33,961 bases of DNA from NCBI GenBank assembly GCA_028284545.1, contig JANQRN010000225.1, forward strand, positions 1 to 33,961, written 5' to 3'. The DNA comes from Rhodothermales bacterium. Its GTDB lineage: Bacteria; Bacteroidota; Rhodothermia; Rhodothermales; JABDKH01. The position numbers and the translations under genes were made by a program. Of the stretch, positions 1 through 31,620 are shown piece by piece; position 1 is the first letter of the stretch, and every line of letters starts with the position of its first letter. The notes beneath the pieces were generated by a model that saw only the letters and a list, made by a program, of their open reading frames with translations, was not told the origin of the DNA and ran no database searches.

Positions 1-86
1 CCTCGCGGCTGCCTGCGGGCGTCTACGCCGTGAGAGCCTCGGCGGTCGCGGCAACTGTCACGCAAATGTTTACTGTGATGCGTTAG
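1..86 (+). CDS. C-terminal end of a T9SS-sorted secreted protein (partial, starts before window)
   Basis: Reading from base 3, the frame gives SRLPAGVYAVRASAVAATV and ends ...MFTVMR before TAG at 84-86. The LPAGVYxVR stretch followed by about 15 residues and a final basic residue is the last beta-strand pair of a type A T9SS C-terminal sorting domain. The same pattern ends two large proteins later in this window (LPTGVYLVR...VALVR and ASGVYYVVV...LVRLR). The protein is therefore probably exported across the outer membrane and released or anchored at the surface. Nothing can be said about its catalytic or binding domains because they lie outside the window. It is too short for the ORF track. 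A rho-independent terminator follows 33 bases after the stop. Confidence 0.75.
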   Translation, partial: SRLPAGVYAVRASAVAATVTQMFTVMR

Positions 87-118
87 GCGGTATACGCGAT
101 GACGCGGGGGAGTGACAG

Positions 119-144
119 TGCCACGCAGAAATGTGGCATTTTTT
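119..144 (+). terminator. Rho-independent terminator after the partial T9SS gene
   Basis: TGCCAC (119-124) pairs with GTGGCA (133-138) around an 8-base loop and is followed at once by six Ts (139-144). It sits 33 bases after the TAG of the upstream gene. The ATG at 131 that opens the longest SIS ORF lies inside this hairpin loop, which argues strongly against that ATG being a real start. Confidence 0.7.
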
Positions 145-259
145 CTTCGGCAACGCCGTCGGCAGGGACACCGCCCCCGATCGCGCCGAAGAAAAGCAGC
201 CACACGAAGTAGCCACCCAGCTCTTTTGGTTACTTTTCTTTTCTAAAAAGAAAAGTAAC
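141..259. repeat. Composite inverted-repeat element between the terminator and the SIS gene
   Basis: Two perfect inverted repeats stand in tandem. TTTTCTTCGGC (141-151) pairs with GCCGAAGAAAA (185-195) around a 33-base interior. GTTACTTTTCTTTT (229-242) pairs with AAAAGAAAAGTAAC (246-259) around a 3-base loop. The second ends 6 bases before the likely ATG of the SIS gene. The GTTACTTTTCTTTT...AAAAGAAAAGTAAC form resembles intergenic hairpins I recall as recurrent in Bacteroidota genomes, but I cannot search for copies here. It could act as a bidirectional terminator, as a 5' UTR hairpin controlling the SIS-ROK pair, or as a dispersed repeat. Confidence 0.65.
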
Positions 260-265
260 ACCCCC

Positions 266-880
266 ATGCTAGGAGCAGACCTCGGCTTCATAGACTACCG
301 CACCCGCCTCCACGGCGAGCTCGACAAAATTGACCCCCGCCACATGCAGGCATGGTCAGACCTTGTGTACGACGCCTGGCTGACCGGCAGGTACGTATAC
401 ATCATCGGGAACGGCGGATCTGGAACATCCGCCAGCCACATGGCCGAAGACCTCGGCAAGAGCACGCTGCACCCCGATGATCTGCGTGACGAATCCAAAC
501 GGCGACTGAAGGTCCTCAGCTTGACTGACAACGCGGGCTGGCTGATGGCCGTAGCTAACGATGTCGACTACGACCAGATCTTCGTCCAGCAACTTATGAA
601 CTACGGCCAGGCGGGCGACCTGTTGATCGCGATCAGCGGATCCGGTAACAGCCCCAACGTGCTCAACGCTGTGGACTGGGCCAATCGCCACGGACTTACA
701 ACGTTCGGCCTGACCGGCTACGACGGCGGCAAGCTGCGCCACACCGCGCAAGCCGGTGTGCACGTAGACCTACCGGACATGGGGATGGTGGAGAGTATTC
801 ACCTCACTCTTTTCCACTGGATGCTCAACGACGTGTACGCACGCATAAACGAAGTCGGGCGGTATGTACCTCGGGATTGA
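266..880 (+). CDS. SIS-domain phosphosugar isomerase-like protein (GmhA-like)
   Basis: This 204-residue protein has the single SIS fold of the sedoheptulose-7-phosphate isomerase/DiaA group, a cytosolic enzyme or binder of phosphorylated sugars. The phosphate-binding loop GNGGSGTSASHMAEDL begins near residue 48 and the second serine-rich loop SGSGNSPN near residue 124. The MVESIHLTLFHWM helix matches the C-terminal helix of GmhA proteins. The ORF track starts at 131, but that ATG lies in a terminator loop and its first 45 codons run through inverted repeats. ATG 266 gives the usual family length. The stop overlaps the start of the ROK kinase by 17 bases, so the two are translationally coupled and probably act on the same sugar. 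Whether it is a true heptose isomerase is uncertain; no other heptose genes are visible. Confidence 0.85.
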   Translation: MLGADLGFIDYRTRLHGELDKIDPRHMQAWSDLVYDAWLTGRYVYIIGNGGSGTSASHMAEDLGKSTLHPDDLRDESKRRLKVLSLTDNAGWLMAVANDVDYDQIFVQQLMNYGQAGDLLIAISGSGNSPNVLNAVDWANRHGLTTFGLTGYDGGKLRHTAQAGVHVDLPDMGMVESIHLTLFHWMLNDVYARINEVGRYVPRD

Positions 881-1802
881 AATCGGTGGGACGAAGCTTC
901 AACTCGGCGTTGGCACTGGGGCAACCGCAGACCTCGTTGACTTCGTACGGATGGACGTGGACCGCGCGGCCGGCGCCGCCGGCGTGCTCGATCAGATCGC
1001 TGAGGCCGGATCGCGGCTCGTCGCGTCACACGACATTCGAAAGATCGGCGTAGGCTTCGGCGGACCGGTCGATATGACCAGCGGCACCGTCATCAAGAGT
1101 CACCACGTGACCGGTTGGGACAACTTTGCCATCTGCGAGTGGTGCGCGCGAACGCTCGGCGTCCCAGCGGTAGTCGGGAACGACTGCGACGTTGCGGCAC
1201 TCGCCGAAGCGAAGTTCGGCGCAGGGCGGGACGCTCGCGTCGTCCTCTACGTTACTGTCGGCACGGGGATAGGCGGTGGCCTTGTGATCGACAACCAGCT
1301 CTACGCGGAACATCTTCCTGCGCGCACCGAGTTGGGCCACCTGCGGCCCGGGTTGCAGTGCGTTGGCACCGACGACATCGTCGAGGCACAGGCATCCGGC
1401 CTGGGAATCGCGGCCACGTTTGGGCGATTGGTGGACACAAGCGATGACGCCAGTGTCGCTGCGAACCTTCTTGAACGAACCGGTCTCACGTCGCCGACCG
1501 AGTTCACGACCAAAGAAATCGCAGCCCTCGCTGAAGCCGGCGAAACCCATGCGGTAGCGGCATTCGGTCAGGCGACGAAGGCCCTCGGATGGGCGATCGC
1601 CCAAACGGTAACGCTTACTGCGACCGAGGTAGTCGTTGTGGGTGGCGGCGTGTCGCTAGCCGGAGAAGAACTCTTCTTCGAGCCCATTCGACGCCACGCT
1701 GCGACCTTCGGTTACCCACCCCTTGCAGATAAGTATCGGATCGTCCCCGCCGCCCTCGGTGAAGACGTAGTCGTGCACGGCGGACTCGTCCTGGCGGCCT
1801 AG
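864..1802 (+). CDS. ROK-family sugar kinase
   Basis: The 312-residue protein opens with the ATP phosphate-binding motif IEIGGTK (residues 5-11). GVGFGGPVD follows, and GNDCD carries the likely catalytic Asp (about D107). A glycine-rich VTVGTGIGGG adenosine motif comes next. These are the landmarks of ROK glucokinase/N-acetylmannosamine kinases, which phosphorylate hexoses with ATP in the cytosol. Usually a CxCGxxGCxE zinc site follows the ELGH histidine. Here the stretch after ELGH (H159) has only one cysteine (C166), so the structural zinc site looks lost. The start lies within the 3' end of the SIS gene, giving a kinase plus phosphosugar-isomerase pair. The substrate cannot be named from sequence; a mannose, glucosamine or heptose derivative is possible. 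Confidence 0.88.
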   Translation: MYLGIEIGGTKLQLGVGTGATADLVDFVRMDVDRAAGAAGVLDQIAEAGSRLVASHDIRKIGVGFGGPVDMTSGTVIKSHHVTGWDNFAICEWCARTLGVPAVVGNDCDVAALAEAKFGAGRDARVVLYVTVGTGIGGGLVIDNQLYAEHLPARTELGHLRPGLQCVGTDDIVEAQASGLGIAATFGRLVDTSDDASVAANLLERTGLTSPTEFTTKEIAALAEAGETHAVAAFGQATKALGWAIAQTVTLTATEVVVVGGGVSLAGEELFFEPIRRHAATFGYPPLADKYRIVPAALGEDVVVHGGLVLAA

Positions 1803-7650: not shown

Positions 7651-9564
7651 ATGACGGACAAGCCAAGGAGACCGCGGTCAGAAATCGCCGCGCAGGTCTG
7701 GGAAGCGCGATACAGGCAGCGCGCAACCGGGCGCGCCAACGAGGATCGATCACTGGATGAGACGTGGAACCGTGTGGCGCAGGCGGTCGCTTCCGTCGAG
7801 GTGACGGATCAGGACGCGTGGCAGGCGCGGTTTCGAGACGTAATGCGGCCGCTACGCTTCATCCCGGCCGGAAGGATTCTCGCCGGCGCCGGCGTCGACG
7901 ATAACCGAACACTGTTGAACTGCTTCGTCATGGGGCTTCTTCTGGATGATCCCGGGTGCATTGCAAACGCGCTCCGAGAGAGCGCGGAGACAATGAAGTG
8001 CGGCGGCGGTGTCGGGTACGACTTCTCGACCCTGCGACCACTCGCCGTACCTGAGTCCAGTGTGGGCCTTCCACAGCAACCTACCTCGGCAGCAAAAGGC
8101 CCTCGTGGCCCAGTTGCCTATCTGCACCTCTTTGAGACGATGTGCAACGAGGCGCTTCGCGAGGACGTCAGGGGCGGCGCGATGATGGCGACACTTTGCT
8201 GCGACCATCCGGATATCGAAGCGTTCATGGACGCCAAGGCAGGACCCACGATGCTCCGGCACTTCAACCTTTCAGTATTGGTGTCAGACGCCTTCCTCGA
8301 CGCAGTTGATGCAGACGAAATGTGGCCGCTCGTCTTTCCGACCAACGAGGCAGATCCGGCGGATGAATACCCGCCACCCGTCGGCACCGTCGTGCGGCAG
8401 TGGTCGACGAACCCGCAGCCGCAGTTCTGTCGTGTGTATAGACGCGTACGGGCCCGCGACCTCTGGGATCACCTCCTGCGGGCTGCCTTCGACTGCGGTG
8501 AGCCCGGTGTACTGTTTGTCGATACGATAAACGATTCCAACAACCTCTGGTATCGCGAGCGACTCACCACGACAAATCCGTGTGGTGAGGTACCGCTTCC
8601 GGCCTACGGCGCCTGCAACCTGGGCTCGCTGAACCTGACACAATATGTCACGGCACCCTTCACCGATCGTGCGCACATCGACTACGACTCGATGAAGGCC
8701 GATATCGCGCTCGCGGTCAGAATACTCGACAATGTTATCGATCTGTCAGACTATCCGCTGGAGGCGCAGCGACACGAAGCGCATGGTTCACGCAGAATCG
8801 GCCTGGGCATGACAGGACTGGCAGACGCTCTGGCGATGCTGGCCCAACGGTACGACTCGGGCACCGGGCGGGCAACAGCGGCCACAATCGCACGCACGAT
8901 CTGCCATGAAGCTTATCGCGCGTCAATCGAGCTGGCCAAAGAAAAGGGCGCTTTCCCACATCTCGAAACCGAGCGGTACCTGTCGGGCCACTTCGTCAAA
9001 CAGCTTCCGGATGACATCAGGGACGGCATTCGTAAACACGGGATTAGAAACAGTCATCTTCTTGCCGTTGCCCCGGCAGGCTCTATCAGTCTACTTGCCG
9101 GGAACGTATCCTCGGGTATTGAACCGATGTTCGCGCCTCGCTTCAGGCGGCGAATCGCAATTCCACACGGCCACTATCGGACGTTTGAATTAACGGACTA
9201 CGCCTATCGCGCGTGGAAAGAATCGACGGGCAACGGAACTGAAATACCCGACTCATTCGTCGACGCGTTCCGAATTGCGCCGATGGACCACGTCAAAATG
9301 CAGGCCGCCATCCAGCGATACGTCGACAACTCGATTTCGAAGACGATCAACCTTGCCACCGACGCATCGTTTGACGACTTTGTTGACATATTCCGCAGCG
9401 CGCAGCAGATGGGGCTGAAAGGGTGCACAGTATTTCGGGCTCAGCATGAGACCGGGAGCGTAGTAGTTAATCTGGACACGGAAATATTTGATCGAGATCC
9501 GCGTTCGCAGGCGTGCGGCGGCGTCCACCTACCGCCGCCCGTTGAATTGCCGGTGAGTGGGTAG
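7651..9564 (+). CDS. nrdJ: Adenosylcobalamin-dependent (class II) ribonucleotide reductase
   Basis: This enzyme reduces ribonucleotides to deoxyribonucleotides in the cytosol with a cobalamin-derived radical, so it needs no oxygen and no R2 subunit. The 637-residue product shows NCFVM with C91 and TTNPCGEVPLP with thiyl-radical C311. GACNLGSLN carries C322. The 11-residue spacing of the last two equals that of Thermotoga maritima NrdJ (C322/C333), so C91 and C322 should be the redox pair. SHLLAVAPAGSISLLAGN and DNSISKTINLATDAS complete the barrel signature. There is no N-terminal ATP-cone. The C-terminus (SQACGGVHLPPPVELP) has one cysteine where many NrdJ proteins have a CxxC shuttle. Its stop overlaps the next gene's start by one base. 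Confidence 0.95.
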   Translation: MTDKPRRPRSEIAAQVWEARYRQRATGRANEDRSLDETWNRVAQAVASVEVTDQDAWQARFRDVMRPLRFIPAGRILAGAGVDDNRTLLNCFVMGLLLDDPGCIANALRESAETMKCGGGVGYDFSTLRPLAVPESSVGLPQQPTSAAKGPRGPVAYLHLFETMCNEALREDVRGGAMMATLCCDHPDIEAFMDAKAGPTMLRHFNLSVLVSDAFLDAVDADEMWPLVFPTNEADPADEYPPPVGTVVRQWSTNPQPQFCRVYRRVRARDLWDHLLRAAFDCGEPGVLFVDTINDSNNLWYRERLTTTNPCGEVPLPAYGACNLGSLNLTQYVTAPFTDRAHIDYDSMKADIALAVRILDNVIDLSDYPLEAQRHEAHGSRRIGLGMTGLADALAMLAQRYDSGTGRATAATIARTICHEAYRASIELAKEKGAFPHLETERYLSGHFVKQLPDDIRDGIRKHGIRNSHLLAVAPAGSISLLAGNVSSGIEPMFAPRFRRRIAIPHGHYRTFELTDYAYRAWKESTGNGTEIPDSFVDAFRIAPMDHVKMQAAIQRYVDNSISKTINLATDASFDDFVDIFRSAQQMGLKGCTVFRAQHETGSVVVNLDTEIFDRDPRSQACGGVHLPPPVELPVSG

Positions 9565-14845: not shown

Positions 14846-17800
14846 TTACCGCACCAGGGCGACGCGCCGCGTCTGCCTCTCACCTCCCACCACGAGGCGG
14901 ACGAGGTAGACGCCTGTCGGTAGCAACGTGCCATCCAGCACGGATTCGTGCTTGCCAGCAGTACGAGGCCCGTCCACAAGACGCGCCACCTCGCGTCCAA
15001 GCAAGTCGTACACCCCGACGCGAACGTGGGCGGCGGCAGGAAGCGCATACGGGATGCGTACCGACGCGGGTGCGGGGTTCGGATACGGAGCGCGAAGAAC
15101 TATCCCCGATATGCGTCCATCCTCGGGCCCTTCTTCTACTACAACCGGGTTGACGGAACCGTCGCCTCCAACCCCGAGATCGCCCCATGCGGTCAGCCCG
15201 CCTGCGCACAGGCGCCCGTTGTCCAACTCGGAGTCAAGGGGCCGCCACGGAGACGCCATCGACTCCCGGTGAACAACGAGAAGCTGCTCCGGGACCGGCG
15301 TGCTGGAAAGTCCATCAATGTCGAGGCACGCGCGGTAGGTCATGCCGCGGAGGCTGTCCGTCGCGAGCGTCCAGTAGCGCATGGCGCTAACGGCATCCGG
15401 TGTGACAACTGAGCCGTCCGGTGCCGTCGCCGAGCCCTCGAACATGTTGTTGTCCGGCGCGAACGGATATCGCCAGCCGAAGAGCGTGCCCGTCGTCTGT
15501 GCTGCGCTCTTGGCCGCCGTCTCTCCGTCAACGAGCTCGATTGCGATCTCCATCCCTGGAAGGACTATCACGAGACCCGGCTCCAGAGAAACGGCTTCCT
15601 CGAAGGCGTCCTCTGAAAGGGTCACGCGGCGGCACTCGCTGAACTCGCTCGATCGAAACTCGGCACCCTGAGACCGGCTTTCGACGGCGCGGACTGTGAT
15701 GTATGCACCCGGCGTCGCTTCGAAATTCGTTGTCGTTGTGAGCCCCCAGGTCTCTCCGGGCTCCACAGGCTCAGAGGCAAGCAACGGGATCCTTCCCTCA
15801 CCGAAGCCGGAGGGGTCGCATGTCGCGCTCGCGTACACCAGCATTTGTATCTGCGGATTGCCCTCCGACGTGGTCGTCTCGGGAGCCAGTGCGTAGATCC
15901 GGTCCATCCGCCGGGTGCCATCTTCGAGGTACACTCCCGCGAGAGGCGGCGTCCCCAGAGCCCCGTCCGCTGAGACCGGCCCGCTGAAACCGCCAACGTC
16001 GACTCCGATGCTCTCGTTGTCGAAGATTTTCGCGGCGCCGATAAAGACATCCTCATTCGGTTCAGCCGTGCCAATCCCGTTGCGGCCGTTGGTCTGGATG
16101 CTGGTCAGGGTGGTGCCGCTCAGGTTGATCTCGGGGACGAGGCCCTCGTTGTCCGGCCCGGCATCCCCGAGGCGGAGCCGAGCTCCCGAAACGTAGATAC
16201 CATCGCGGGTGTTCGGGCGAGGGTCGAAGCTGACGTTCCCGCCGGCTTCCACAGGGACGGCTCCGATCAGGTTGCCCGTGGCACGCACCTCGGGGCGCTC
16301 CGCGCCTGTTCCGTATGCCCCGACGCCGTCACCAACGTTTCCAGCGATGACGTTGAAAAGAAGGCTCGTTTCTCGATCGACCACGATGACGCCGCCGCCG
16401 ATCTCGACTGTATTCGCACCGCTAAACCCCCTGCCGTTGGGCATGGCTGTCCCTTCGGCGATGATCCCAATCCGGTTGCCTGCAATCACCGTCGGGGACG
16501 CCGCCGCAACGAGCGTAGGGTTTTCGGGATCAGGCGAAACCAGAACTCCAAAGTCGTCGCTTGCAACGATAACATTCCCGAAGTCATCGGACGCATATAG
16601 GTCTCCGCTTCCTGCTTCGAAGGCACCAATCGCGTTGCCTCCCCGGATGTCCCACACGCCGACCCTATTCGGCCGCTCTCGGGTGCCCGTAACATCCGTA
16701 CCGATAAGGTTAGCGGTCACAACGTTCTGTGATGACTCCAGCAGCACACCGATTCGCTGTCCCGCAATCACATTGCCTCGAGCCACTCCACCGATGAGCG
16801 CTTTCGCATCACCGGCGACGTACACGCCGGCGTCTCCAGGAACCGGTTCGGCCGTCGGCAGCAGGCCTATCACGTTGTTGGAAAGCCCGACAAACGAATC
16901 TTCCGGCTCGATGCCGGGGAAGGTATAGGTCGGAGGGGCTGCCCCCTCGATGCGGACCTGGACCGCGCTCCCAACGATGACGTTGGATGTCGTACCCGTC
17001 CCACCCAATTGGGTACGAATCGGTCCTGGAACAGCGTCCTCGCCCTCACCTCCGGAGACCCACACACCGTAGGCCCCGTTGCCGAGCGATTCTCTTCCGT
17101 CGAGAGTGGGTCCGATGAAATTCGCGTAGATGCCAACCTCTTGGGGGGCGAACGGCAGGTCGGCGGGATTCCCACTCCAATCTAAGCTCAGGAGTGAGAT
17201 CCCCACCCCGCTGTTTCCGGAGATGACGTTCCGCTCTCCAGGCTCTCCCCCAATTCGTGTTGCGGCTGAGGCTCCGTACAAATACACTCCTGCTGCGTTC
17301 GGGACCGCGCGCTGACCAGTCACATCCGTCCCGATCAGGTTGCCGGCGATGCGTGTGAGGCTCGGCAGTGTTTCCGGGTCCTCGACGGAGACGAAGACGC
17401 CGAACAGCAGCCCGGAAATTGCGTTGCCTGGGGCCGAGCCGGGAGTCCCGGCGTCTCCTCCGATGAGTGTTCCCTCGCCACCGAAGACGAGAACGCCAAC
17501 ACCGCTCGGCTCCCCGTTAATAGAGGCGTCACCGTCTCGTGTCAATCCGATGGTGTTCCCCGAGATTCGATTTTCGCGGGCCGCACCAGCAACAACGACG
17601 CCAGCGGGGATCGTGGCGGGGCTTATTTCATCCTCGGTCGTAAAAGACTCAGACGCGATCACGTTGCGGGCAGCCTCCTCGCTGCCCCCAATGGTGTTCT
17701 CAGCGCCGCCCTCGATCCGAACGCCAAACCGCCGGTTCGGGCGCGGCGTAGTCCCGTCTGGCATCACGCCGATGTGGCACGCCTCGACGCGGTTGTTGTC

Positions 17801-19510
17801 GCCCGTGATGCGGATGCCGTTCATCGCAAAGTCCACGATCGCCAGCCCACGCACAGCGCCCCCGTTTCCCTCCAGCACTAGCCCGTCGTCGAGCGAGCCT
17901 CCGCCGTCCAGCACAACTACAGGTGATCCCGCGTACCCCGTCTGCGTTGTTGCGTCGATCATGATCGGACCCGCGAGCGCTGGCAGGAGACTGGCAGGCT
18001 CTATGGTTTGCACGCCGGTCCCGGGGATCTCGAACGCCAGCTCGTGGGCCTCACCCGCCGCGTTCGCCTCCTCAATCGCCGCACGGAGCGTGCATTCGGG
18101 TACCTCCTCGCCTCCTACCGTGACCGTGCTGCCGGTATCGCAGGTGCCATCACCCGGCGTCGCGTCTGCGTCATCGTCGATGGAGTTGACCGCGAACCGG
18201 GGCACCGGATCCGACAGAATAGACACGTACGCCGAACCGTCCCCTCGGTCATCTCCCCATGCACCCATAACAGCCACGCCCATCGAAAGCGACACGTCGT
18301 AGCCGTACCGGTCATCGCTCGCCCCGTCGGACGCCGTGATCTTCTGCAGCTCCGTCCACGTCGACCCGTCGCGGGCGAAGTGGTACGCAGCGCCCGTTTC
18401 ATTCGTCGCGCCGGGTGCGAACGTCGCACCGATGATCGCCTCGCCGTCAGACAGCGCGACCGACGAGCCGAACCGATCGTCCCGTCGGTCGATGAAGTTG
18501 GGCGGACGATCTGACGCGGTGATCTTCTGCTCCTCCCGCCAGGTCGTCCCATCGAAGGCGAAGGCATAGGCTTTCCCTCCCGCGTTTCCGCCGGCGTCCC
18601 CCTCGTCGGCCCCAACGATTGCATGGTCCCCATTGATGGCGACCGAGATTCCGAACTGGTCACCCGGAGTCACATCGCTGCCTGAGAGTCGCGTCCGCTG
18701 GCTCCAGGTTGTACCGTTGAAGACAAACACATACGCAGCGCCTCGGCCGATGAAACCATACGCACCAATTAGCGCGCGGTCGCCCGAAAGGGAGACGTCA
18801 TAACCGAAATAGTCGCCCGGCGACCCACCAGAGGCGGTAAGCTTCTGCTGCTCTGCCCAAGTGGTTCCGTCGAAGGCATAGATGTACGCTGCTCCACGGG
18901 AGTTGCCGAGTCCGCTCGAAGCGCCCACGAGTACGCGATTGCCAGACAGTGAAATCGAGCGACCGAAGCGCTCTCCAACGCTGCCGTCTGAGGGCACAAG
19001 CTTGGCTGCCTGGCTCCAGGCCGTGCCATCGAAGTCAAAGACGTAGGCGGCGTTCCCGCTGCTGCCGCTTCCCGGGTTTCCTGAGGCAACAACGGCGCGG
19101 TTGCCCTCAATCGCAACCGCACTCCCGAAGGCATCGCCCGCCACCCCATCGGACGCCACAAGCTTGGCCTGCTGCACCCACGAGGTGCCGTTGTATGCAA
19201 ACACGTAGGCTGCGCCACGCCGGGAGTCCGCGTTGTAGGCGCCCACGAGCACGCGGTCGGTCGTGGCCGAGACCGCGAAGCCGAATCGGTCGCCCGAGCC
19301 AGCGTCTGCAGCCGTGAGCTTGACTTCCCCTCGGGCCGCCCTCGTGAGTACGGCCTCCAACGCTCTATCTGCCTGAGCGACCTCTCCAAGCCTCCAAAGC
19401 GAAGGGTCTAGCGCTGGCGCCCGGTTCGGCTGCGCGCGTAGAGTTGAGGCACTGACTACCAGAAGCGCCAGCGGGATTAGAGCAAAGCGGGACATCCGAG
19501 ACGGAACCAT
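14846..19510 (-). CDS. T9SS-exported FG-GAP propeller plus beta-helix protein
   Basis: The 1554-residue protein has a signal peptide (FALIPLALLVVSASTLRA). Seven FG-GAP-like repeats of about 52 residues follow (residues ~60-440, e.g. GDRFGFAVS...GAAYVFAYNGTSW), enough to close a seven-bladed propeller. A CSLREA-like motif (CTLRAAIEEANA, near 473) comes next. Then come about 700 residues of parallel beta-helix repeats with recurring NVIAGN/NVISGN and IGTDVTG motifs. A C-terminal T9SS sorting domain of about 80 residues ends it (APYPNPAPASVRIPYALP ... LPTGVYLVRLV). It should be exported to the surface and could bind polysaccharide or other cells; no catalytic residues are apparent. Met6 (19495) is an alternative start. 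Strongly repetitive coding gives long shadow ORFs on the other strand. Confidence 0.9.
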   Translation of the reverse strand: MVPSRMSRFALIPLALLVVSASTLRAQPNRAPALDPSLWRLGEVAQADRALEAVLTRAARGEVKLTAADAGSGDRFGFAVSATTDRVLVGAYNADSRRGAAYVFAYNGTSWVQQAKLVASDGVAGDAFGSAVAIEGNRAVVASGNPGSGSSGNAAYVFDFDGTAWSQAAKLVPSDGSVGERFGRSISLSGNRVLVGASSGLGNSRGAAYIYAFDGTTWAEQQKLTASGGSPGDYFGYDVSLSGDRALIGAYGFIGRGAAYVFVFNGTTWSQRTRLSGSDVTPGDQFGISVAINGDHAIVGADEGDAGGNAGGKAYAFAFDGTTWREEQKITASDRPPNFIDRRDDRFGSSVALSDGEAIIGATFAPGATNETGAAYHFARDGSTWTELQKITASDGASDDRYGYDVSLSMGVAVMGAWGDDRGDGSAYVSILSDPVPRFAVNSIDDDADATPGDGTCDTGSTVTVGGEEVPECTLRAAIEEANAAGEAHELAFEIPGTGVQTIEPASLLPALAGPIMIDATTQTGYAGSPVVVLDGGGSLDDGLVLEGNGGAVRGLAIVDFAMNGIRITGDNNRVEACHIGVMPDGTTPRPNRRFGVRIEGGAENTIGGSEEAARNVIASESFTTEDEISPATIPAGVVVAGAARENRISGNTIGLTRDGDASINGEPSGVGVLVFGGEGTLIGGDAGTPGSAPGNAISGLLFGVFVSVEDPETLPSLTRIAGNLIGTDVTGQRAVPNAAGVYLYGASAATRIGGEPGERNVISGNSGVGISLLSLDWSGNPADLPFAPQEVGIYANFIGPTLDGRESLGNGAYGVWVSGGEGEDAVPGPIRTQLGGTGTTSNVIVGSAVQVRIEGAAPPTYTFPGIEPEDSFVGLSNNVIGLLPTAEPVPGDAGVYVAGDAKALIGGVARGNVIAGQRIGVLLESSQNVVTANLIGTDVTGTRERPNRVGVWDIRGGNAIGAFEAGSGDLYASDDFGNVIVASDDFGVLVSPDPENPTLVAAASPTVIAGNRIGIIAEGTAMPNGRGFSGANTVEIGGGVIVVDRETSLLFNVIAGNVGDGVGAYGTGAERPEVRATGNLIGAVPVEAGGNVSFDPRPNTRDGIYVSGARLRLGDAGPDNEGLVPEINLSGTTLTSIQTNGRNGIGTAEPNEDVFIGAAKIFDNESIGVDVGGFSGPVSADGALGTPPLAGVYLEDGTRRMDRIYALAPETTTSEGNPQIQMLVYASATCDPSGFGEGRIPLLASEPVEPGETWGLTTTTNFEATPGAYITVRAVESRSQGAEFRSSEFSECRRVTLSEDAFEEAVSLEPGLVIVLPGMEIAIELVDGETAAKSAAQTTGTLFGWRYPFAPDNNMFEGSATAPDGSVVTPDAVSAMRYWTLATDSLRGMTYRACLDIDGLSSTPVPEQLLVVHRESMASPWRPLDSELDNGRLCAGGLTAWGDLGVGGDGSVNPVVVEEGPEDGRISGIVLRAPYPNPAPASVRIPYALPAAAHVRVGVYDLLGREVARLVDGPRTAGKHESVLDGTLLPTGVYLVRLVVGGERQTRRVALVR

Positions 19511-19761
19511 CAGGAGAATAGGAGGGCATGAGGTGAACGCGATAATTCATAAACCGAAATAACGCCCGGAACTAGCTCACGCCACCGACGATTCTTGTTG
19601 GACGACTTATCCATCTGCCCGACACGAGCAGCATGGCCAAAAAAACGCAGGTGCCGGTCCGGTAGATTGCCCTAAGACGCTCTCGCCGTCCTCCAAGGAG
19701 GGCGGGCGGGTGACCTGATCGGCGAATCGATCGGGCAGGACCCAAACGGGATTGCGGCGTC
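19511..19761. other. Intergenic region between the FG-GAP lipoprotein and the propeller/beta-helix gene
   Basis: No gene is visible. CGTCCTCC (19687-19694) can pair with GGAGGGCG (19697-19704), a GC-rich stem with an almost absent loop. About 50 bases further along the - strand comes a T7 run (19634-19640). The two are too far apart for a canonical terminator. A promoter for the downstream gene presumably lies in the AT-rich part at 19540-19565, but I cannot define it. Confidence 0.35.
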
Positions 19762-20964
19762 CTAGCGCTTGGAGGCTACTAGTTGCAGGGAGAACTTGCC
19801 GACGCCGTTGTTGATGTAGGCGAAGCCCTCGTCGAGGTTGTCGGGGCCGAAGTCCAGGTCGCCGTCGCCATCCACATCCTGCATTCTGATCCAAGCAAAC
19901 CACGGATCTCGCTCGCCGCCCGGGAAGTCGACATCTTCGAGCGTCCTGTCGACGAACGTGCGACCGCCCTCATTCCGGAGGTACTGTACCGTGCGGCCAA
20001 CGTAGAAGCCGAGTTCTCCGCCGTCATCCCCGTCTCGTGTGCGGTTGATCACGAGGTCCCGGTCACCATCGCCGTCGAGGTCCTCGGCGTCGAAGTCGAG
20101 GACTGCCCCAAACGGACTTAGTGCAGGCAAGAGCGTCTTCTGGCCACTCGAGAAAACCCCTGTTGGGTTGCCCCAGTAGATAGCGGTAGCATCTCCGTCC
20201 CGCTCGTGAGCGCCCGCAAGGAGGTCGACAAATCCGTCCCGATCCACATCGATAAGCTCGGCTGAGAAGACCTTTGCCATGTTGTCGACGAAACGGTCAT
20301 CGACCTTCTCGAAGGCTCCAGTCCCGTCGTTGACGTAGAAGAAGGGATCGAATCCACCAACAAATATGTCGATGTCGCCGTCATTGTCGATGTCGGCTGC
20401 GGCTCCGCCGTGGTGGAAACCAGTTTGCTCGGTCATCTTCTTCCACGAGAACTCAGCTGCGTTTTCCTGAACGATGAGCTTCGGTTGGCCACCGGGGAAC
20501 GGCATCGCGTCGTATCCGTGATCAAAAATGAAGACGTCGTCGAGGCCGTCTCCGTTGAAATCGCTGGTGATCGCTTTGCGCGCGTGGGTCGCCGTCGGCA
20601 TTTGCCCACCGAATTCCAGGGTGGATGACGCAAACTTTCCCGTCCCGTCGTTAATGGCGAGGATGCTGCTCACCTCTTTCTGCGTGAGGTATTCACCGGT
20701 GCCAACAAAGACGTCGGTGTCCCCATCGCCGTCCGCGTCCAGGTAGGCGATCGCGTCGCTCAGGTCACCTGTGCCGCTGGGTCGCGGGAGTGACGAGTAC
20801 GCTATGTGAATGTCCGCCTTCGCATGCGTGTAGGAGCTTCCGGCGTCGGCGTTGGGTGCCGGAGCAATGCGCATCTCGTTGACCGAGGCCGGGTTGTCGC
20901 CACTGCAACCAGCGGCTACCGCGACAATCAGGAGTAGGAGTGGGAGCTTTGACACGACGGTCAC
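19762..20964 (-). CDS. FG-GAP/VCBS-repeat lipoprotein
   Basis: The 400-residue protein begins with a lipoprotein signal, LLLLIVAVAAGC, with the lipidated Cys at residue 20. SGDN follows, somewhat like a Bacteroidota surface-export signal. The body carries six calcium-type loops of the DxDxDGxxD kind: LDADGDGDTD, SDFNGDGLDD, ADIDNDGDID, IDVDRDGFVD, EDLDGDGDRD, QDVDGDGDLD. These are spaced about 50-60 residues apart and form an FG-GAP/VCBS propeller. It probably sits on the outer membrane and binds Ca2+. The start is GTG. It follows the hybrid regulator by 50 bases and may be its cotranscribed target. No enzyme motif is seen; a binding or adhesion role is inference. Confidence 0.88.
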   Translation of the reverse strand: MTVVSKLPLLLLIVAVAAGCSGDNPASVNEMRIAPAPNADAGSSYTHAKADIHIAYSSLPRPSGTGDLSDAIAYLDADGDGDTDVFVGTGEYLTQKEVSSILAINDGTGKFASSTLEFGGQMPTATHARKAITSDFNGDGLDDVFIFDHGYDAMPFPGGQPKLIVQENAAEFSWKKMTEQTGFHHGGAAADIDNDGDIDIFVGGFDPFFYVNDGTGAFEKVDDRFVDNMAKVFSAELIDVDRDGFVDLLAGAHERDGDATAIYWGNPTGVFSSGQKTLLPALSPFGAVLDFDAEDLDGDGDRDLVINRTRDGDDGGELGFYVGRTVQYLRNEGGRTFVDRTLEDVDFPGGERDPWFAWIRMQDVDGDGDLDFGPDNLDEGFAYINNGVGKFSLQLVASKR

Positions 20965-21014
20965 TGAAGTCGGGTGGGTGTAGACTTTCAGTATCGACCG
21001 GTGTCAGAAACGCA

Positions 21015-24000
21015 TTAAGGGTCTGGTGGCCCGTCCAGCATTCCGCGCACGGCGCTTGGGCTGATGCCGAACTCCTTCTTGTAGACGGCGGAGAAGTGCG
21101 ACGGCGAGCGAAAACCAACAAACGACGCGACGTCGGCGACGGTACCCGCGCCCTCCTCGAGAAGGTGCCTGGCCTGAGCGAGTCGAAAGCGTCGCAAGTA
21201 GGCCGCCGGGGAAGTCCCGATTGTGTCGGCCATCCGGCGCTCGAGAGCCCGCCGGCTGGTGCCCATCGATTCAGCGAGGAGCGAGACGCCAAAGAAAGAG
21301 TCGGATATGTGCTGTTGTATCGTTGCGTTAAGCTCAGCGACAAACCCCGCCTCGGCGCCCGGGGCCTCCAGACCCATGTCTGGGAGCAGGATCTTCTGCA
21401 CTGGCTTGCTCAGCCTCGTTCGCGAAGCGACGAGGTTGTTGATGCGCGCTCTCAGGTGCTGCGGACTAAACGGTTTGCTTATGTAGTCGTCAGCCGCACA
21501 CTCGAGTCCGCGTATGACACTTGCCTCATCTGCCCGCGCCGTGAGCAGGATGAACGGAGTGTCAGCGATTCCGTCTTCGGCGCGCAGCGTCTCCAGGACT
21601 TCATATCCGTCCATCCCCGTCATCATCACATCGCAGATGACTATCTCCGGTTGACACTGCCGAATCAAATCGAGCCCATCCGAACCCGACCCGGCCGCGC
21701 GGACGTCGAAGTCGCTCAGCTCTGACGCGATGAACTCGCGGAGCTCGGCATCGTCATCAACTACAACGACGGTTGGTCCCGTCGAGGGGCGCGCCGTACT
21801 CCCTCGTGTTTCCGGCGTTTGCGCGGTCTCGGTTACCGTCAGCGTTCTTTCATGTCTTGACCCGCCCACGCTCGACTGCGTACGTCGCAGCGGTAGCTGG
21901 ATCGAGAAAGAACTGCCAAAGCCCACCTCGCTCTCCAGAATAACGGTGCCGTCCATCATCTGCACGAGCTCCTTCACGATTGCCAGACCGATACCAGTCC
22001 CACCGACTTCCGACCCCGCGCTGATCTGCTCAAATCGCTCGAAGACCCGCTGATGGTTGGGCTGGTCGATGCCGATGCCGGTGTCGCGCACAGTGACCCG
22101 GACATTCTCGTCTCCGGATGTAAGCGTCACCCACACCTTGCCACCCGACTGGGTGAACTTGATCGCGTTCGAGATCAGGTTGTCCACGACAATGGAGACT
22201 TTGTCGGCGTCTGCGACAGTCTTGTAGTCGGAGTCGTCAGATCGAAAGGCGAGCGTAACGTCTGCTCGCTCGGCTGCGGATGCGAAGTACCGAACCCGCG
22301 ACGAGACCACGTCGACCAGATCGCACGCTGCCTCCTGTAGACTTAGCTGACCCGATTCCAGCTTGGAGAGGTCCAGAAGCTGGTTCACGAGGTTCAGAAG
22401 ACGATTCGCGTTCCGAAGCACCCCTTTGTCGCGAACTGCGAGATCGGGGTCCAGATCCTTGCGCTGCAGCCAGGACTCAATTGGCCCGACAATCAGGGTC
22501 AAGGGCGTTCTGAACTCATGGGAGATGTTGGCGAAGAAGCGACTCTTCGCACTATCGAGTTCCGCGAGGCGTCGTGCCTCCTCATCAGCTCGCGACTTCT
22601 CCTTCGCCAGCTGCGCGAGCTGCTGCGTTCGGATGATGCGATTCACGCGGCTTCTATACATCTGGACCGCAACGGCGATTAGCAGCAGCGTTCCCAGGAG
22701 ACGAAACGCGATTGTCTGATAGAAACGCGGCTCGACGAAGACCGCGAGGCTCACACCGTCGTCATTCCAGAGTCCGTCGTTGTTCGAGCCACGTACCTGA
22801 AACGTGTACCTGCCCGGAGGCACGCGCGTGTATCGTGCCGTTCGACCAAGCGGGTCGATCCAGTCGTTGTCGTACCCAAGCAACTTGTAGCGATAGTCGT
22901 TTTCGCTGGGCAGCAGGAAGTTGAGTGCCGAAAACTCGAAGGAGAACGCTCCTGTCGTCACGGGAACGGTCAGGCTAGCCCCGACCGGCACCGAAACGTC
23001 TCCGCTACGCTCAGAAAGCAGTATGCGCGTAACGACAACCGGTGGCACAAATCTGTTGTCCACGATTTCCGACGGCCGGAACCGCGTCAGCCCGTTCATG
23101 CCACCAAAGAACAACTCCCCATCTGAAGTCGCGAATCTCGCGCGCCTGTTGTACTCGGTGTTGCCGGTCCCATCTTCTGCGGAGAAAGTTCGTATCTGAC
23201 CGCCGCGTTGCCCTGCCGGTTGGAATCGTGAAAGCCCATTATTCGTGCCCAACCAAAGTTCACCCTCAGACCCCGGGAGGACACTGTAGACAACTGATCC
23301 GGGCAGACCATCGTCGGTTGCATAGTGCACAAACGTGTTGTCGCCCGTGTCGAATGACGAAAGGCCCGCGCCAGACGCCAACCATGCGATTCCATCGTCT
23401 CCGACGTGAATATCCCAAACCCCTTCACTTTCCAGGCGACTCCCAGCGGTCGACACAAGCGGGTGGGACACGGCGCCTCCGTCGCGCGGGTCGAGTCGGA
23501 CAACCATCGAGTTCGTGCCAAGCAGCATCACGCTATCGGAAACGGCAGCAAACGACTCTACGGTGATGTAGGTGGAGTAGCCGTCGATGGAATCCAACGA
23601 ATACCGCGTCAATTGCTCGGTTGCCGTCGAGTACCTCAGCACTTCGCCACCGAAGCCGGCGGCAATCCAGATGTCGTCCCCGACCATCGCCGTAGCCGCG
23701 TTCGTTCCAAATCGATCCATTGAGGATCTCACAAAGGAGCCGCCCCCGAACGAACACAAGAAGCCATCAGCGACGATCCACATCTTTCCCGATATGCTCT
23801 TGTGCACAGCCGAAATGTTGTCGCCGCACAGGTCCGAATTGCCCGTGCTATAGTTCCGAATCGCACCGTTGGAGGAAACTCGAGACAATCCGCTACCAAA
23901 CGTGCCGACCCAGACAGTTTCTTGGACTTCGTCTACGAAGATTGCCGACACTGATCGACCGGCCAGTGTGTTCGGGCTGTTCGGATTCCGCGTCAGATTT

Positions 24001-25046
24001 CGAAACTGCTTTGCGTTCGGGTCATGCCGGTAGGCACCAGAGTGCGTGCCGACCCAAAGACCACCCGCCGCGTCGACGAACAGCGCCTGCGCGAAGTTGT
24101 CCAGGTACGTGCCGTCGGTATCGGGCACCATTAGGACATCTCTCGAACGCAACGACGCGAGGTCAACCTGAATGAGACCGGCACCGGTGCCGAGCCATGC
24201 AGTCTTGTCCGTCAAGATGACATCGCGGACCCTTTCGTCGGCGACGCCAGGCCCGGCAGGCCGAAGCGATCCACTTTGTCGGACTAGCGGAAAGGCCTGT
24301 GCTCCCCATAACCGACCGTAGTCGTCAACCTCTACGTTGCTCCAGTTTCCTCCCGCGGTCAGCAGGAGCGTCCATTGACTTGTACCTGCGTTCAGATGAT
24401 AGTAGAGCGTGCTGTCGCTCGAGACATCAACGCGCTTGGCAATCATGCCGTCTGCCACTTCAACCACGCCGAGGAAGTACAGTCCGAACTTGTCCTGTAC
24501 GGCGTTACTTCCGCGGTCCACATCGTGTCGCATCACGGAGCCATCCGGCATGACCGAGAAGAGTCCCCCGGTCGTCGCAGCCCAGATTGCACCGCGCTTG
24601 TCCTCATACAGATCCAGGATTGAGAACCGCTGCGAAAGATCTCTTCCGGGATCGAGTTCGATGTGCACGATGGGCCCGAGACCATCGTCCATACGGTCCA
24701 ATCCCGTCGCAGTACCAACCCACAGCCTGCCTGACCGATCTACAAGGAGGCTCTCAATAAGGTTGCTCGACAACGAGGTGGTATCGCCTGCAACGCTTCG
24801 CAGCGTGACGAAGTTGTACCCGTCGAATCGGTTGAGCCCGTCCGGCGTACCCAGCCAGATATACCCGTCGTGGTCCTGAGCGATTGCATACACGGAGTTG
24901 TGCGAGAGGCCGTCCTCGACGCCCACGCGATCAAACCGTTCTGCTTGCGCCCGCCACTTCTCCTGGGAGAGGGCGTCGGGTGCACCGGCGACGATGTGCG
25001 CCAAGGAGATGAGAGTTGCAATCGCAAGCTGGCGGATTCCAGGCAT
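21015..25046 (-). CDS. Hybrid two-component system protein (sensor kinase, receiver and AraC DNA-binding in one chain)
   Basis: The 1343-residue protein has a signal peptide (residues 1-28). About twelve two-component-regulator propeller repeats follow (e.g. DHDGYIWLGTPDGLNRFDG). A Y_Y_Y domain near 705-775 (YRYKLLGYDNDW ... GRYTFQVRGSN) and one membrane helix near 780-800 come next. HisKA has SHEFRTPL with phospho-acceptor H843. The ATPase domain has N-box NLISNAIKF near 957, DTGIGI and GGTGIGLAIVKEL. The receiver has VVDDDAE, phospho-Asp D1139 in CDVMMTGMDG, and the conserved Lys in SKPF. A C-terminal AraC helix-turn-helix pair spans about 1245-1340. All catalytic residues are intact. It senses a periplasmic ligand and regulates transcription, usually of neighbouring outer-membrane uptake genes in Bacteroidota. 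Here the neighbours are surface proteins instead. Confidence 0.96.
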   Translation of the reverse strand: MPGIRQLAIATLISLAHIVAGAPDALSQEKWRAQAERFDRVGVEDGLSHNSVYAIAQDHDGYIWLGTPDGLNRFDGYNFVTLRSVAGDTTSLSSNLIESLLVDRSGRLWVGTATGLDRMDDGLGPIVHIELDPGRDLSQRFSILDLYEDKRGAIWAATTGGLFSVMPDGSVMRHDVDRGSNAVQDKFGLYFLGVVEVADGMIAKRVDVSSDSTLYYHLNAGTSQWTLLLTAGGNWSNVEVDDYGRLWGAQAFPLVRQSGSLRPAGPGVADERVRDVILTDKTAWLGTGAGLIQVDLASLRSRDVLMVPDTDGTYLDNFAQALFVDAAGGLWVGTHSGAYRHDPNAKQFRNLTRNPNSPNTLAGRSVSAIFVDEVQETVWVGTFGSGLSRVSSNGAIRNYSTGNSDLCGDNISAVHKSISGKMWIVADGFLCSFGGGSFVRSSMDRFGTNAATAMVGDDIWIAAGFGGEVLRYSTATEQLTRYSLDSIDGYSTYITVESFAAVSDSVMLLGTNSMVVRLDPRDGGAVSHPLVSTAGSRLESEGVWDIHVGDDGIAWLASGAGLSSFDTGDNTFVHYATDDGLPGSVVYSVLPGSEGELWLGTNNGLSRFQPAGQRGGQIRTFSAEDGTGNTEYNRRARFATSDGELFFGGMNGLTRFRPSEIVDNRFVPPVVVTRILLSERSGDVSVPVGASLTVPVTTGAFSFEFSALNFLLPSENDYRYKLLGYDNDWIDPLGRTARYTRVPPGRYTFQVRGSNNDGLWNDDGVSLAVFVEPRFYQTIAFRLLGTLLLIAVAVQMYRSRVNRIIRTQQLAQLAKEKSRADEEARRLAELDSAKSRFFANISHEFRTPLTLIVGPIESWLQRKDLDPDLAVRDKGVLRNANRLLNLVNQLLDLSKLESGQLSLQEAACDLVDVVSSRVRYFASAAERADVTLAFRSDDSDYKTVADADKVSIVVDNLISNAIKFTQSGGKVWVTLTSGDENVRVTVRDTGIGIDQPNHQRVFERFEQISAGSEVGGTGIGLAIVKELVQMMDGTVILESEVGFGSSFSIQLPLRRTQSSVGGSRHERTLTVTETAQTPETRGSTARPSTGPTVVVVDDDAELREFIASELSDFDVRAAGSGSDGLDLIRQCQPEIVICDVMMTGMDGYEVLETLRAEDGIADTPFILLTARADEASVIRGLECAADDYISKPFSPQHLRARINNLVASRTRLSKPVQKILLPDMGLEAPGAEAGFVAELNATIQQHISDSFFGVSLLAESMGTSRRALERRMADTIGTSPAAYLRRFRLAQARHLLEEGAGTVADVASFVGFRSPSHFSAVYKKEFGISPSAVRGMLDGPPDP

Positions 25047-25080
25047 TGCCGCGCGTCACGCCCTATTGTGGTTACGGTCT

Positions 25081-28000
25081 CTAGCGCAGCCTGACCAGCG
25101 TGACGGTCTCGCGTTGCTTTTCCAGCGCAACGACAACGTAGTAGACTCCACTTGCGACCGCCTCTGGTTTCCAGACGACTTGATGTGGCCCCACCTCCTG
25201 CCTCTCGTCACGCAACACGGCCACACGTCTTCCAAGAACGTCAAAAACCGAGACTGTTGTTCGCCCTGGTTGCCCCAGGACGTAATCCAGCGTGACGACT
25301 TCAGAGAACGGATTGGGATAGGCCGGCGACAGCCGGAAATCCCCTGCCGGCACCTCGTCTACGCCGACAGCGGTCACCTCCACGGTGACAGGTGCAGGTC
25401 GTGTTGATTCTGCATTTCCGACGCTGTCAACGGCCAATGCATAGAAGGAGTAGGTTCCGGTTGTTGGCGTTTCGACCCTGATGCTATCTCCTGCGGAAGT
25501 CCCTGCGAAAAGGAACGGTCCATCGTCGATGGAGACGAAAACGGACGAGTGGCTGATGCCTGAGCCGCTCCCGTCATCTGCCAGCCAACGCACTGTCGCG
25601 GAGTCACCTTCCAATGGCGCGGAGAACGGCAACATGTCTGTCGAAGGCGCATCCAGGTCGAGGGTGTTGATGTGGGTGTTCGTCAGGATCGCGTCGTTTA
25701 GGTCAAAGACGATGCTCGCTCGGTTGCTGAGCGCGTCTCCGGTTGCGAGGCCCTCGCGGGGATGGACCGAGAACGAAACAAAGCCCTCCCCCTCGGGAGG
25801 GTTTACGTTTGGCGGCAGTTCGATGCCGACAACCTCCCACCGCAAATTGGGCCCATCCTGTACGAACGTGAACCCCGGATGACTCGACGGTCCCAACTCG
25901 ACGGTCGACGCGTCGAAGTCAGCGTCCAGCGTATCGTCAATCGTTATCCGATAGGCGGCTGCCCCTGCTGTCGCGAGGTTTTCGAAGTAGATCGTGTAGT
26001 CTATCCGCCCGACCTCCGACAGGTAACCGCGTGACCCACTCCCGGCAGGTCCATGTTTTTCGTTTGGGTCCAGTGAGGTGACGGGTTCCAACTCGCGCCG
26101 CGACGTGAAAACAGCTGAACCTGGGCAAGCCTGCACGGCCGCTTGGCCACCTCTCTTGTTCAGGCGTCGAATGTAGTCGCAAGCATCGGTGAACTTCTTG
26201 TACGGACGCGCAACGACCCTGTCAAAGACAAAAATCCCCAGCTCCCCAATGCACTTGGCTATGTTCGTCGTGAACCGCTTCGCCAAAAACGAACCTACGC
26301 TTGGCGTCATCACAGCCTGAAAACTGGAGTACAGCCTCGACGCGCTGGCCAGTTTTGACGAACGCCGACTCAGACGTGACGCCTCGTAGCGAGCATTCTG
26401 CCAGGCGCGGTCCCAGTCAGCAGAACCGTAGGTATCGTAGTCCATCCGTACCGCGCGGCACCACTGATATAGTTGCGTGCTCTTGAAGTCTACAACCTCT
26501 TGGGTCACCTCGGCGAGTGCTACGCCGGCTACTATTGTGAGTCCCGCCGAAATCGGTTCAAACTGCTGCGCGCTCGATTCATGCTTGCTGCTTGCACTCT
26601 CTATGCGGTCAGCCCAGGCCTCAAGGCCAAACGTGCGGGTTTCCCCGGGCTCCATACTGTTAATCCAGAGCAGCGCAGCCGAATCTGACGGTAGTTCATC
26701 GACGGCAAAGTCTGCGGGCAGCATCACGTTCTCGTTGCCCTCGTCGTCAAACCCGGTGATGATCTTGGAGATGTGCCCTCCTTCGCTGAGCGCCAAGACG
26801 GCAATCATGTCACCTGTTGGGCGCCTGCTCGCGTTCGTGTAGGTGTACGTATACAGCAGCGGCGCCCCCACGCGAATTACATCTCGTCCGGTGAGCGTAA
26901 TAACGATGTTCGGCGCCACGCTGATCGGATCCGCGGTAGAGGACAGCAGGTACATGGCGTTCGAGGCAACGTCGACAATCGTCACACGGTTGTTGTCGGG
27001 ATCTCGCGTCAGGTTGGCGGCCCCTGACACCTGCCTCCACGATTGTCCGCCGTCCTCTGAAGCATAGACTTCCAGGGAGTCTTCGTCGTTGTCGCCGAGG
27101 TGGTCGTTGTCGTACTCGAGTATGAGTTCCGTAAGGTTGTTGCCCTCACCAGTGTTGGTGTACACTCGCCACCAGTTGCGAACGGCTGCACCAAACGTGC
27201 GCGGGGTTTGGTTTCCGTGCGTCTCGACAAAAATGGAATCAAAGTCTGCCACAGAGCCCGTACGCACGCTGCTATCGTAGAAGACAGACCGGTCGTTTGC
27301 CCGAGCCGCTGCGTACATCGTGATTCGAGCGAAATTTTCCAGGTTGGCCGGGGCGCCGCCCAGTCCTCCTTCAGGAATCACAAGGTGCCCATCGGTGATC
27401 CGCGCAAAACCATCAAAATCGATCGCGATCTGCGGCAGAACGTTGGTACCCGTCAACGCTACGTCGGGACCGTCTGTAAGGACAAACGCCGATGTCGCGT
27501 CAACGCCCGAAACGTTCCTCGGCCCCGAGCCCGATAGAACAAGTCGTCTTGGGGAGAACGGGCCGTTGACGATAACGTCGCCAGTGGCGCTGATATCGAG
27601 ACTACCCGTCGTTACCCCATTGCTCCAGAGCGTTCCGCCGACCTCGATGTTCTCGACAGCAAAGTTGCCCTCAGAATCAAAAAGGCTGTCTGCAACCACC
27701 AGCGAACCCTCAACAACTACCGGCGCACCAACCCGCATGGATCCCGAGACGGAGAGATCACCGAAGATGTTGGAGCGCCAGAGTTTGGATCGGTCGAAAA
27801 AGGCGATACTGTCCACTGATACATCGGTGTAATCGATGTAAGTCTCGTTCGTAAGTGTAATCGGATGCCCGTCCATGTCGAGGAAGCCGGGCTGCATGCT
27901 GACGGTCGCCGCGCTAAACGTCAGCGGGCTCTCGGCCGTCACTACCGACGAATCCGCGGCGTTCCATTCTCCGCCAAGCGGCGAACCGCTCTCATGGCGG

Positions 28001-28884: not shown

Positions 28885-29005
28885 GGCAAGACCGGTGACA
28901 CGAGAGGTGACATGTGAAACTGCCACCCAAAATGCTCACAGACGCCCATCGCAAATGCGGCATTCACTGCCAAACATGCGTCAGCAACGTCCAAAAGTGC
29001 GCCAG

Positions 29006-31399: not shown

Positions 31400-31620
31400 C
31401 GGTGTCGGGTACAAGTTCAGTTCCCCAGCGATTTACAATCAGCGTGCCAAGGCACACGGACGACGCCGGAAGTCCGCGTGGTGACGCCCGTGGGGAATCC
31501 TGTGACAAATCTGCGCACATTCGACGGCCCGCGTGACCGCCCACAGAACACACGGTGTTCGGAGGCGGACACCCCAGCCTGCCTGAGAATGCAAAATCTT
31601 TAAGTTGAGCGGATACGTCA
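31400..31620. other. Intergenic region between the ABC permease and the 51-codon ORF
   Basis: The region holds the divergent promoters of the permease and of the small ORF, neither of which I can pin down. A strong hairpin lies at 31554-31573: GGTGTTCG pairs with CGGACACC around a GAGG loop. It is 47 bases before the small ORF. The 86-aa tracked ORF across this region overlaps the permease gene antisense and does not look like protein. Confidence 0.35.

Follow-up and report, generated by a model that had tools for sequence, protein, structure and literature searches.

Dispersed two-part repeats with a conserved fold in a Rhodothermia lineage, commonly placed with a T-rich hairpin directly behind stop codons

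The bacterial repeats closest to the element analysed here are the REP and BIME sequences of Enterobacteria and Pseudomonas. Like our repeats, these are extragenic, palindromic with compensatory changes and present in several copies per genome; they often lie at most 15 nt behind stop codons and sometimes form inverted pairs, and E. coli REPs at that distance have been reported to stall ribosomes (PMC12306157). The defining features of the REPs associated with RAYT transposases include a fixed GTAG head (PMC2817692). Our repeats differ from REP and BIME sequences in being about 150 bp long and joining two structured parts, where theirs is a unit of 20-40 bp, in having few copies, in coming without a RAYT gene that could be found and in belonging to another phylum. 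MITEs, RU-1/2/3 and ERIC sequences share their size (100-170 bp), intergenic location and scattered distribution, and likewise need no open reading frame of their own, but here neither terminal inverted repeats nor target-site duplications were recognised by eye at the copy ends, and the sequence is far less conserved than the structure. PATEs derived from IS200/IS605 carry a fixed cleavage-site motif by a subterminal hairpin, while in our repeats both motif and spacing vary. Integron attC sites read RYYYAAC ... GTTRRRY, whereas the hairpin ends found here read GTTACTT...AAGTAAC. The repeats form a previously unlabelled family, of about 150 bases per copy, in a little-known bacterial lineage.

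The window, the whole stretch of DNA that was analysed (33,961 nucleotides), is the complete contig C234 of a MAG that is 81% complete (G000). In front of a SIS-domain gene it contains, as the preliminary description stated, two perfect inverted repeats. The first has 11-base arms, TTTTCTTCGGC at 141-151 and GCCGAAGAAAA at 185-195, around an interior of 33 bases, and can be extended imperfectly to 132-151/185-204 (20 nt, 85%). The second, P3, is a perfect 14-base hairpin (GTTACTTTTCTTTT at 229-242, AAAAGAAAAGTAAC at 246-259) with a loop of 3 bases; it stops exactly 6 bases short of the SIS ATG at position 266, also as described. Both rank among the strongest short-range inverted repeats of the 34-kb window and are far beyond chance, with 0 occurrences of the P2-type pattern (the 11-base repeat) in shuffles and an expectation of 0.1 for the P3 arm. 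A 131-nt stretch folds with z = -7.6. The two inverted repeats were confirmed as parts of one element, at approximately 112-260 of the window, laid out as follows.

1-86, plus strand: 3' end of the upstream gene, with stop codon TAG at 84-86 and a tail ending in LPAGVYAVRASAVAATVTQMFTVMR (sequence reading)
112-117, plus strand: left box GTGACA (alignment of 11 copies)
117-144, plus strand: terminator-like hairpin, TGCCAC (119-124)/GTGGCA (133-138), and T run (-11.3 kcal/mol, z -1.9)
132-137, plus strand: 5' arm of the outer stem P1, TGTGGC (compensatory changes across copies)
141-151, plus strand: 5' arm of stem P2, TTTTCTTCGGC (inverted-repeat and covariation analysis)
152-184, plus strand: interior of P2, 33 nt, the family's most variable part
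185-195, plus strand: 3' arm of stem P2, GCCGAAGAAAA (inverted-repeat and covariation analysis)
199-204, plus strand: 3' arm of the outer stem P1, GCCACA (compensatory changes across copies)
205-216, plus strand: 12-nt insertion, in the window copy only
221-228, plus strand: T-rich half repeat CTCTTTTG (consensus CTTTTCTTTGG), echoing the 5' arm of P3
229-259, plus strand: T-rich hairpin P3, 14 bp with a 3-nt loop; in other copies this end adjoins stop codons
266-880, plus strand: SIS-domain gene, its start backed by the congener G001
864-1802, plus strand: ROK-family gene, overlapping the SIS gene (gene call)

The start of the element, previously put at 118 and behind a separate canonical terminator, is corrected to about 112. 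The terminator-like hairpin is part of the element itself, being built from its left box and from the outer stem's 5' arm: GTGGCA at 133-138 doubles as the 5' arm of P1 (132-137/199-204), and the hairpin is not visible in the other aligned copies. Most copies of the genus keep the left box GTGACA, 20-25 nt ahead of the outer stem. In one copy of the congener (on C414, at about 1430-1500 of the locus), tandem GGGACA repeats lead into it, which suggests local slippage at GTGACA/GGGACA.

In a DNA search, window positions 1-265 matched a copy on contig C4 of the same genome at 70% and, partially, a sequence in G001 at 78%. A covariance model of three diverged copies (C234, C4 and G001) was run over 114 genomes of the order, and end-to-end matches were obtained for about eight copies in G000 (on C4, C234, C118, C126, C51, C60 and, twice, C275), three in G001 (C426, C446 and C414) and about 14 in G004, of another genus of the family. 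A second model, of 23 copies, reproduced the copies of these three genomes and found none in three other family members (G002, G003 and G005); weak matches elsewhere in the order (G019, G075 and G076) resemble P3-type hairpins at best. The earlier proposal of a "mobile or dispersed intergenic element" is supported by full-length copies in G000 and two relatives and by an empty SIS site in G001; the copies may have moved by transposition. The genome-wide search for the exact sequences that had been suggested as a check, extended to near-exact hairpins, returned a single copy in G000; taken literally, the exact-sequence test would have spoken wrongly against dispersal, since the exact hairpin occurs only once. 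Counts of exact sequence miss families of this kind, where a hairpin that occurs only once as a sequence belongs to a numerous group when its fold is considered. Divergence from the nearest relative is 20-40% for most copies, so their spread is old or slow.

Scans with the P2 pattern gave no match in IMG/VR; in GTDB the G001 copy was the only element, the remaining hits being, as judged by eye, coding or unrelated repeats. Three Sphingobacterium species among these hits share another repeat (TTCTTCGGCAACGAGTCGAAGCC...), nearly identical between them and containing nested inverted repeats. Rfam has no match in the window at gathering thresholds and none to the copies at E <= 0.5. Full-text papers, in a collection whose coverage stops short of subscription papers and supplements, yielded no relevant paper for the P3 core sequence.

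All copies follow a common plan: an outer stem encloses the paired arms TTyTTyGGC/GCCrAArAA, between which the interior varies, and a T-rich hairpin completes the element. In element sense, the consensus of the left part is GTGACAgca-(~20)-(CC)CGGCATT-rTTTyTTyGGC-(variable)-GCCrAArAAA-yyCAGCCGGG-ag-, followed on the right by CTTTTCTTTGGTTACTTTCTTTkG-CG-CAAAAGAAAGTAAC. Compensatory changes in P1 and P3 are already evident in the three-copy alignment, for instance GTTAC/GTAAC, GCTAC/GTAGC and GATAC/GTATC. Across the 23 copies, 96.7% of the cells pair, and in 24 of the 31 pairs both partners have changed; covariation scores 0.544, compared with 0.171 when shuffled and at most 0.09 when slid. Because this alignment had been fitted to the covariance model, the G004 copies alone were realigned with MAFFT and refolded with RNAalifold, which recovered the three helices with 13 compensatory pairs; identity among them is 69% in paired columns versus 17% in the interior. 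As read from these alignments, the paired shape is kept while the letters change.

The end of the element carrying P3 lies directly behind genes. Read along the neighbouring gene, P3 starts 5 nt after the stop codon on C4, 0 on C118, 6 on C126, 4 and 5 on C275, 1 on C51, 4 on C426 and 2 on C446. Five copies of G004 have P3 at -2 to 8 nt from a stop codon, and the C414 copy of G001 is 3 nt from the 3' end of a tRNA gene. Overall, the end of P3 falls within -2 to 8 nt of a stop codon in 13 of 22 copies (p about 6e-15), and in 8 of 10 within the genus of G000 and G001 (p about 3e-11), against 3.0% for random placement in non-coding DNA; these p values are rough, being based on simple gene calls, a range picked post hoc and copies that are not fully independent. 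Orientation is fixed in the copies next to stop codons or the tRNA gene, with P3 towards the gene. The neighbouring genes are real and unrelated: they encode the F-ATPase epsilon subunit (atpC), HPr kinase (hprK), a GNAT protein, a SpoIIE-type phosphatase, a TIM-barrel isomerase, a met-zincin, a GH43 protein, a DUF5916 protein, an AcrB-type transporter and a beta-barrel protein, while the gene at C426 has no Pfam match.

Two copies on C275, at 7753-7875 (minus strand) and 8816-8932 (plus strand), are inverted and 0.94 kb apart. They sit between convergent SpoIIE-type and GNAT genes, each P3 facing the stop codon of its own gene. A composite transposon between them was considered and set aside, as the open reading frame list of the 0.94 kb contains no clear transposase. 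Small arrays occur in G004, at a locus of C69 (locus positions 1438-1941) and at a second locus (1501-1683), where inverted full copies are accompanied by extra solitary P3-type hairpins; one GH3-type gene apparently ends within such a hairpin.

Comparison with the congener shows that the element is absent at all four G000 loci that can be compared. At C4, C118 and C51 the ends of the DUF5916 gene, atpC and the isomerase gene, respectively, have their match in G001, and the available G001 sequence behind them contains no element; at the C4 locus the gap to the conserved convergent neighbour measures about 40 bp in G001 versus 246 in G000. The same-locus comparison proposed earlier for the SIS gene gave the fourth case: in G001 its orthologue has a different upstream neighbour, and its leader is short and carries GAAGAGAGG ahead of the ATG. 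As these loci are empty in G001, copies come and go among congeners, although loss rather than insertion could explain part of the pattern. Both MAGs are fragmented (81% and 72% complete), and among the compared loci no exact empty/filled pair had both flanks alignable. Such empty and filled sites provide a test set for asking if hairpins right after a stop codon serve as useful 3' modules or are tolerated as junk.

We consider it probable that window positions 112-260 are a REP-like, non-autonomous, structure-selected dispersed repeat of a Rhodothermia lineage, lacking a detectable RAYT. The presence of several copies per genome, the maintained pairing, the presence or absence between congeners and the fixed orientation with P3 behind stop codons support this directly; against it speak the failure to find a mobiliser, the absence of terminal repeats or target duplications recognisable by eye, the divergence of most copies and the window copy itself, which breaks the stop-codon rule. 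Copies would be spread by an enzyme, or by copy-and-conversion, recognising a folded single strand, and would settle or be retained at gene 3' ends. The transcript would then have a hairpin right after the stop codon, which may alter termination, 3'-end stability or ribosome release, as reported for E. coli REPs; an effect on transcripts or translation we infer by this analogy. The window copy would have landed against the SIS start codon and displaced the leader. As to the mobiliser, no transposase was found, and Y1_Tnp (PF01797) is absent from G000-G005, G075 and G329, eight incomplete genomes that include a 93% complete carrier, in a search in which control genomes were positive. RAYT transposases explain most REP-like repeats, and a family without a detectable RAYT asks what else can spread such elements.

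Alternatively, the element may be a structured regulatory or processing RNA module, such as a 3' UTR element or bidirectional terminator, that is not mobile and is kept by function at selected genes; we regard this as unlikely. In element sense, the GC-rich P1/P2 stem is followed by the T-rich run CTTTTCTTTGG and could terminate transcripts from the opposite side, while in gene sense P3 could protect or end the mRNA. The strict position and orientation behind stop codons and the strong covariation would suit such a module, as would the element-sense strand having 15 G.U cells and only 3 A.C mismatches, a hint, from few independent events, of an RNA of that sense. However, G001 lacks the element at the same genes, the few copies sit behind genes that are unrelated, P3 is not followed by a T run in gene sense in the aligned copies, and inverted pairs or arrays are found in G004 and on C275.

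A bolder extension of the preferred reading, as a dispersed REP-like repeat, strikes us as improbable: that this is a structured mobile element of a new class, which is directed to, or selected at, the base right behind stop codons, is moved by an enzyme reading folded DNA or RNA and puts a standard 3' module on unrelated genes, with the T-rich hairpin as the core of a superfamily across Rhodothermota, Bacteroidota, Fusobacteriota and Betaproteobacteria. P3-type hairpins (CTTTCTTTGGTTACTTTCTTTG..CAAAGAAAGTAAC) in Caballeronia, Variovorax, Ilyobacter and other Bacteroidota share the half repeat, the T-rich hairpin, the multiple copies and the intergenic location, but they are not stop-adjacent in the annotated records checked and their P1/P2 part differs; they may be homologous to our P3 or convergent on it. 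The first bases of the Burkholderia sRNA family Bp1_684 (Rfam RF02421) match, below threshold, the 3' arm of the Caballeronia hairpin; P3-like hairpins thus exist beside an annotated RNA family, as Bp1_684 starts inside one, but that family models the sequence after the hairpin and has no match to the Rhodothermia copies. In a phylum-wide scan with a P3 pattern the AT-rich background was too high for a clean count, and some genomes exceeded the control and carry real P3-type hairpins. In one, G329 (another Bacteroidota), about 12 matches were found (e.g. CTTTCTTTTGCCTTGACGCAAAAGAAAG) versus 2 in the control, one of them about 12 nt behind a stop codon.

That the repeats are REPs, BIMEs or PATEs served by a RAYT or IS200/IS605 enzyme, with a Y1 transposase reading the hairpin ends as single strands, is very improbable. 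The two-hairpin anatomy, the gene-end location, loops that vary while stems are conserved and a TAG or GTAG ahead of P3 in several copies are reminiscent of such elements, and the repeats are indeed extragenic, palindromic and multi-copy. On the other hand, GTAG is absent in other copies, TAG lies at varying distances from P3, and TGA or TAA precedes several copies; a constant TAG-to-hairpin spacing as target site was rejected on these grounds. With no Y1 transposase in the eight genomes and no GT(A/G)G head at a fixed place, we did not file the family as RAYT REPs. A translational switch specific to the SIS-ROK pair, a possibility raised earlier, would have the 14-bp A/T hairpin shut the ribosome site and open on a signal; as the element's function this is very unlikely: the position and predicted stability of the hairpin (-12.7 kcal/mol) and the absence here of the Shine-Dalgarno-like stretch of the congener's leader would fit it, but the SIS operon of G001 does without the element and the same hairpin family abuts the stop codons of unrelated genes.

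Among the G000 and G001 copies whose two ends are resolved, the window copy alone follows neither a stop codon nor the end of a tRNA gene; its P3 faces the SIS start, on the side where other copies have the stop. A chimeric assembly is possible in principle at this copy, but the nearest copy has only about 18 nt of P3 sequence in common with it. The P3 hairpin, with its modelled stability, would be expected to reduce SIS translation, and a local effect on start-site access is possible; SIS-ROK expression is probably altered as a by-product of this copy. The SIS frame is open upstream through the whole element to an ATG at 131 (131-880), giving a possible 45-residue extension, MWHFFFGNAVGRDTAPDRAEEKQPHEVATQLFWLLFFSKKKSNTP, and a fusion read-out of element and SIS is conceivable. 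In the gene upstream of the element, the tail looks, by eye, like a type IX secretion sorting tail (Por_Secre_tail), for which another protein of the window has a Pfam match. Very large genes occupy 14846-31414 of the window (minus strand), encoding an FG-GAP repeat protein with a type IX sorting tail, a hybrid two-component sensor with AraC-type output and an FtsX/MacB permease.
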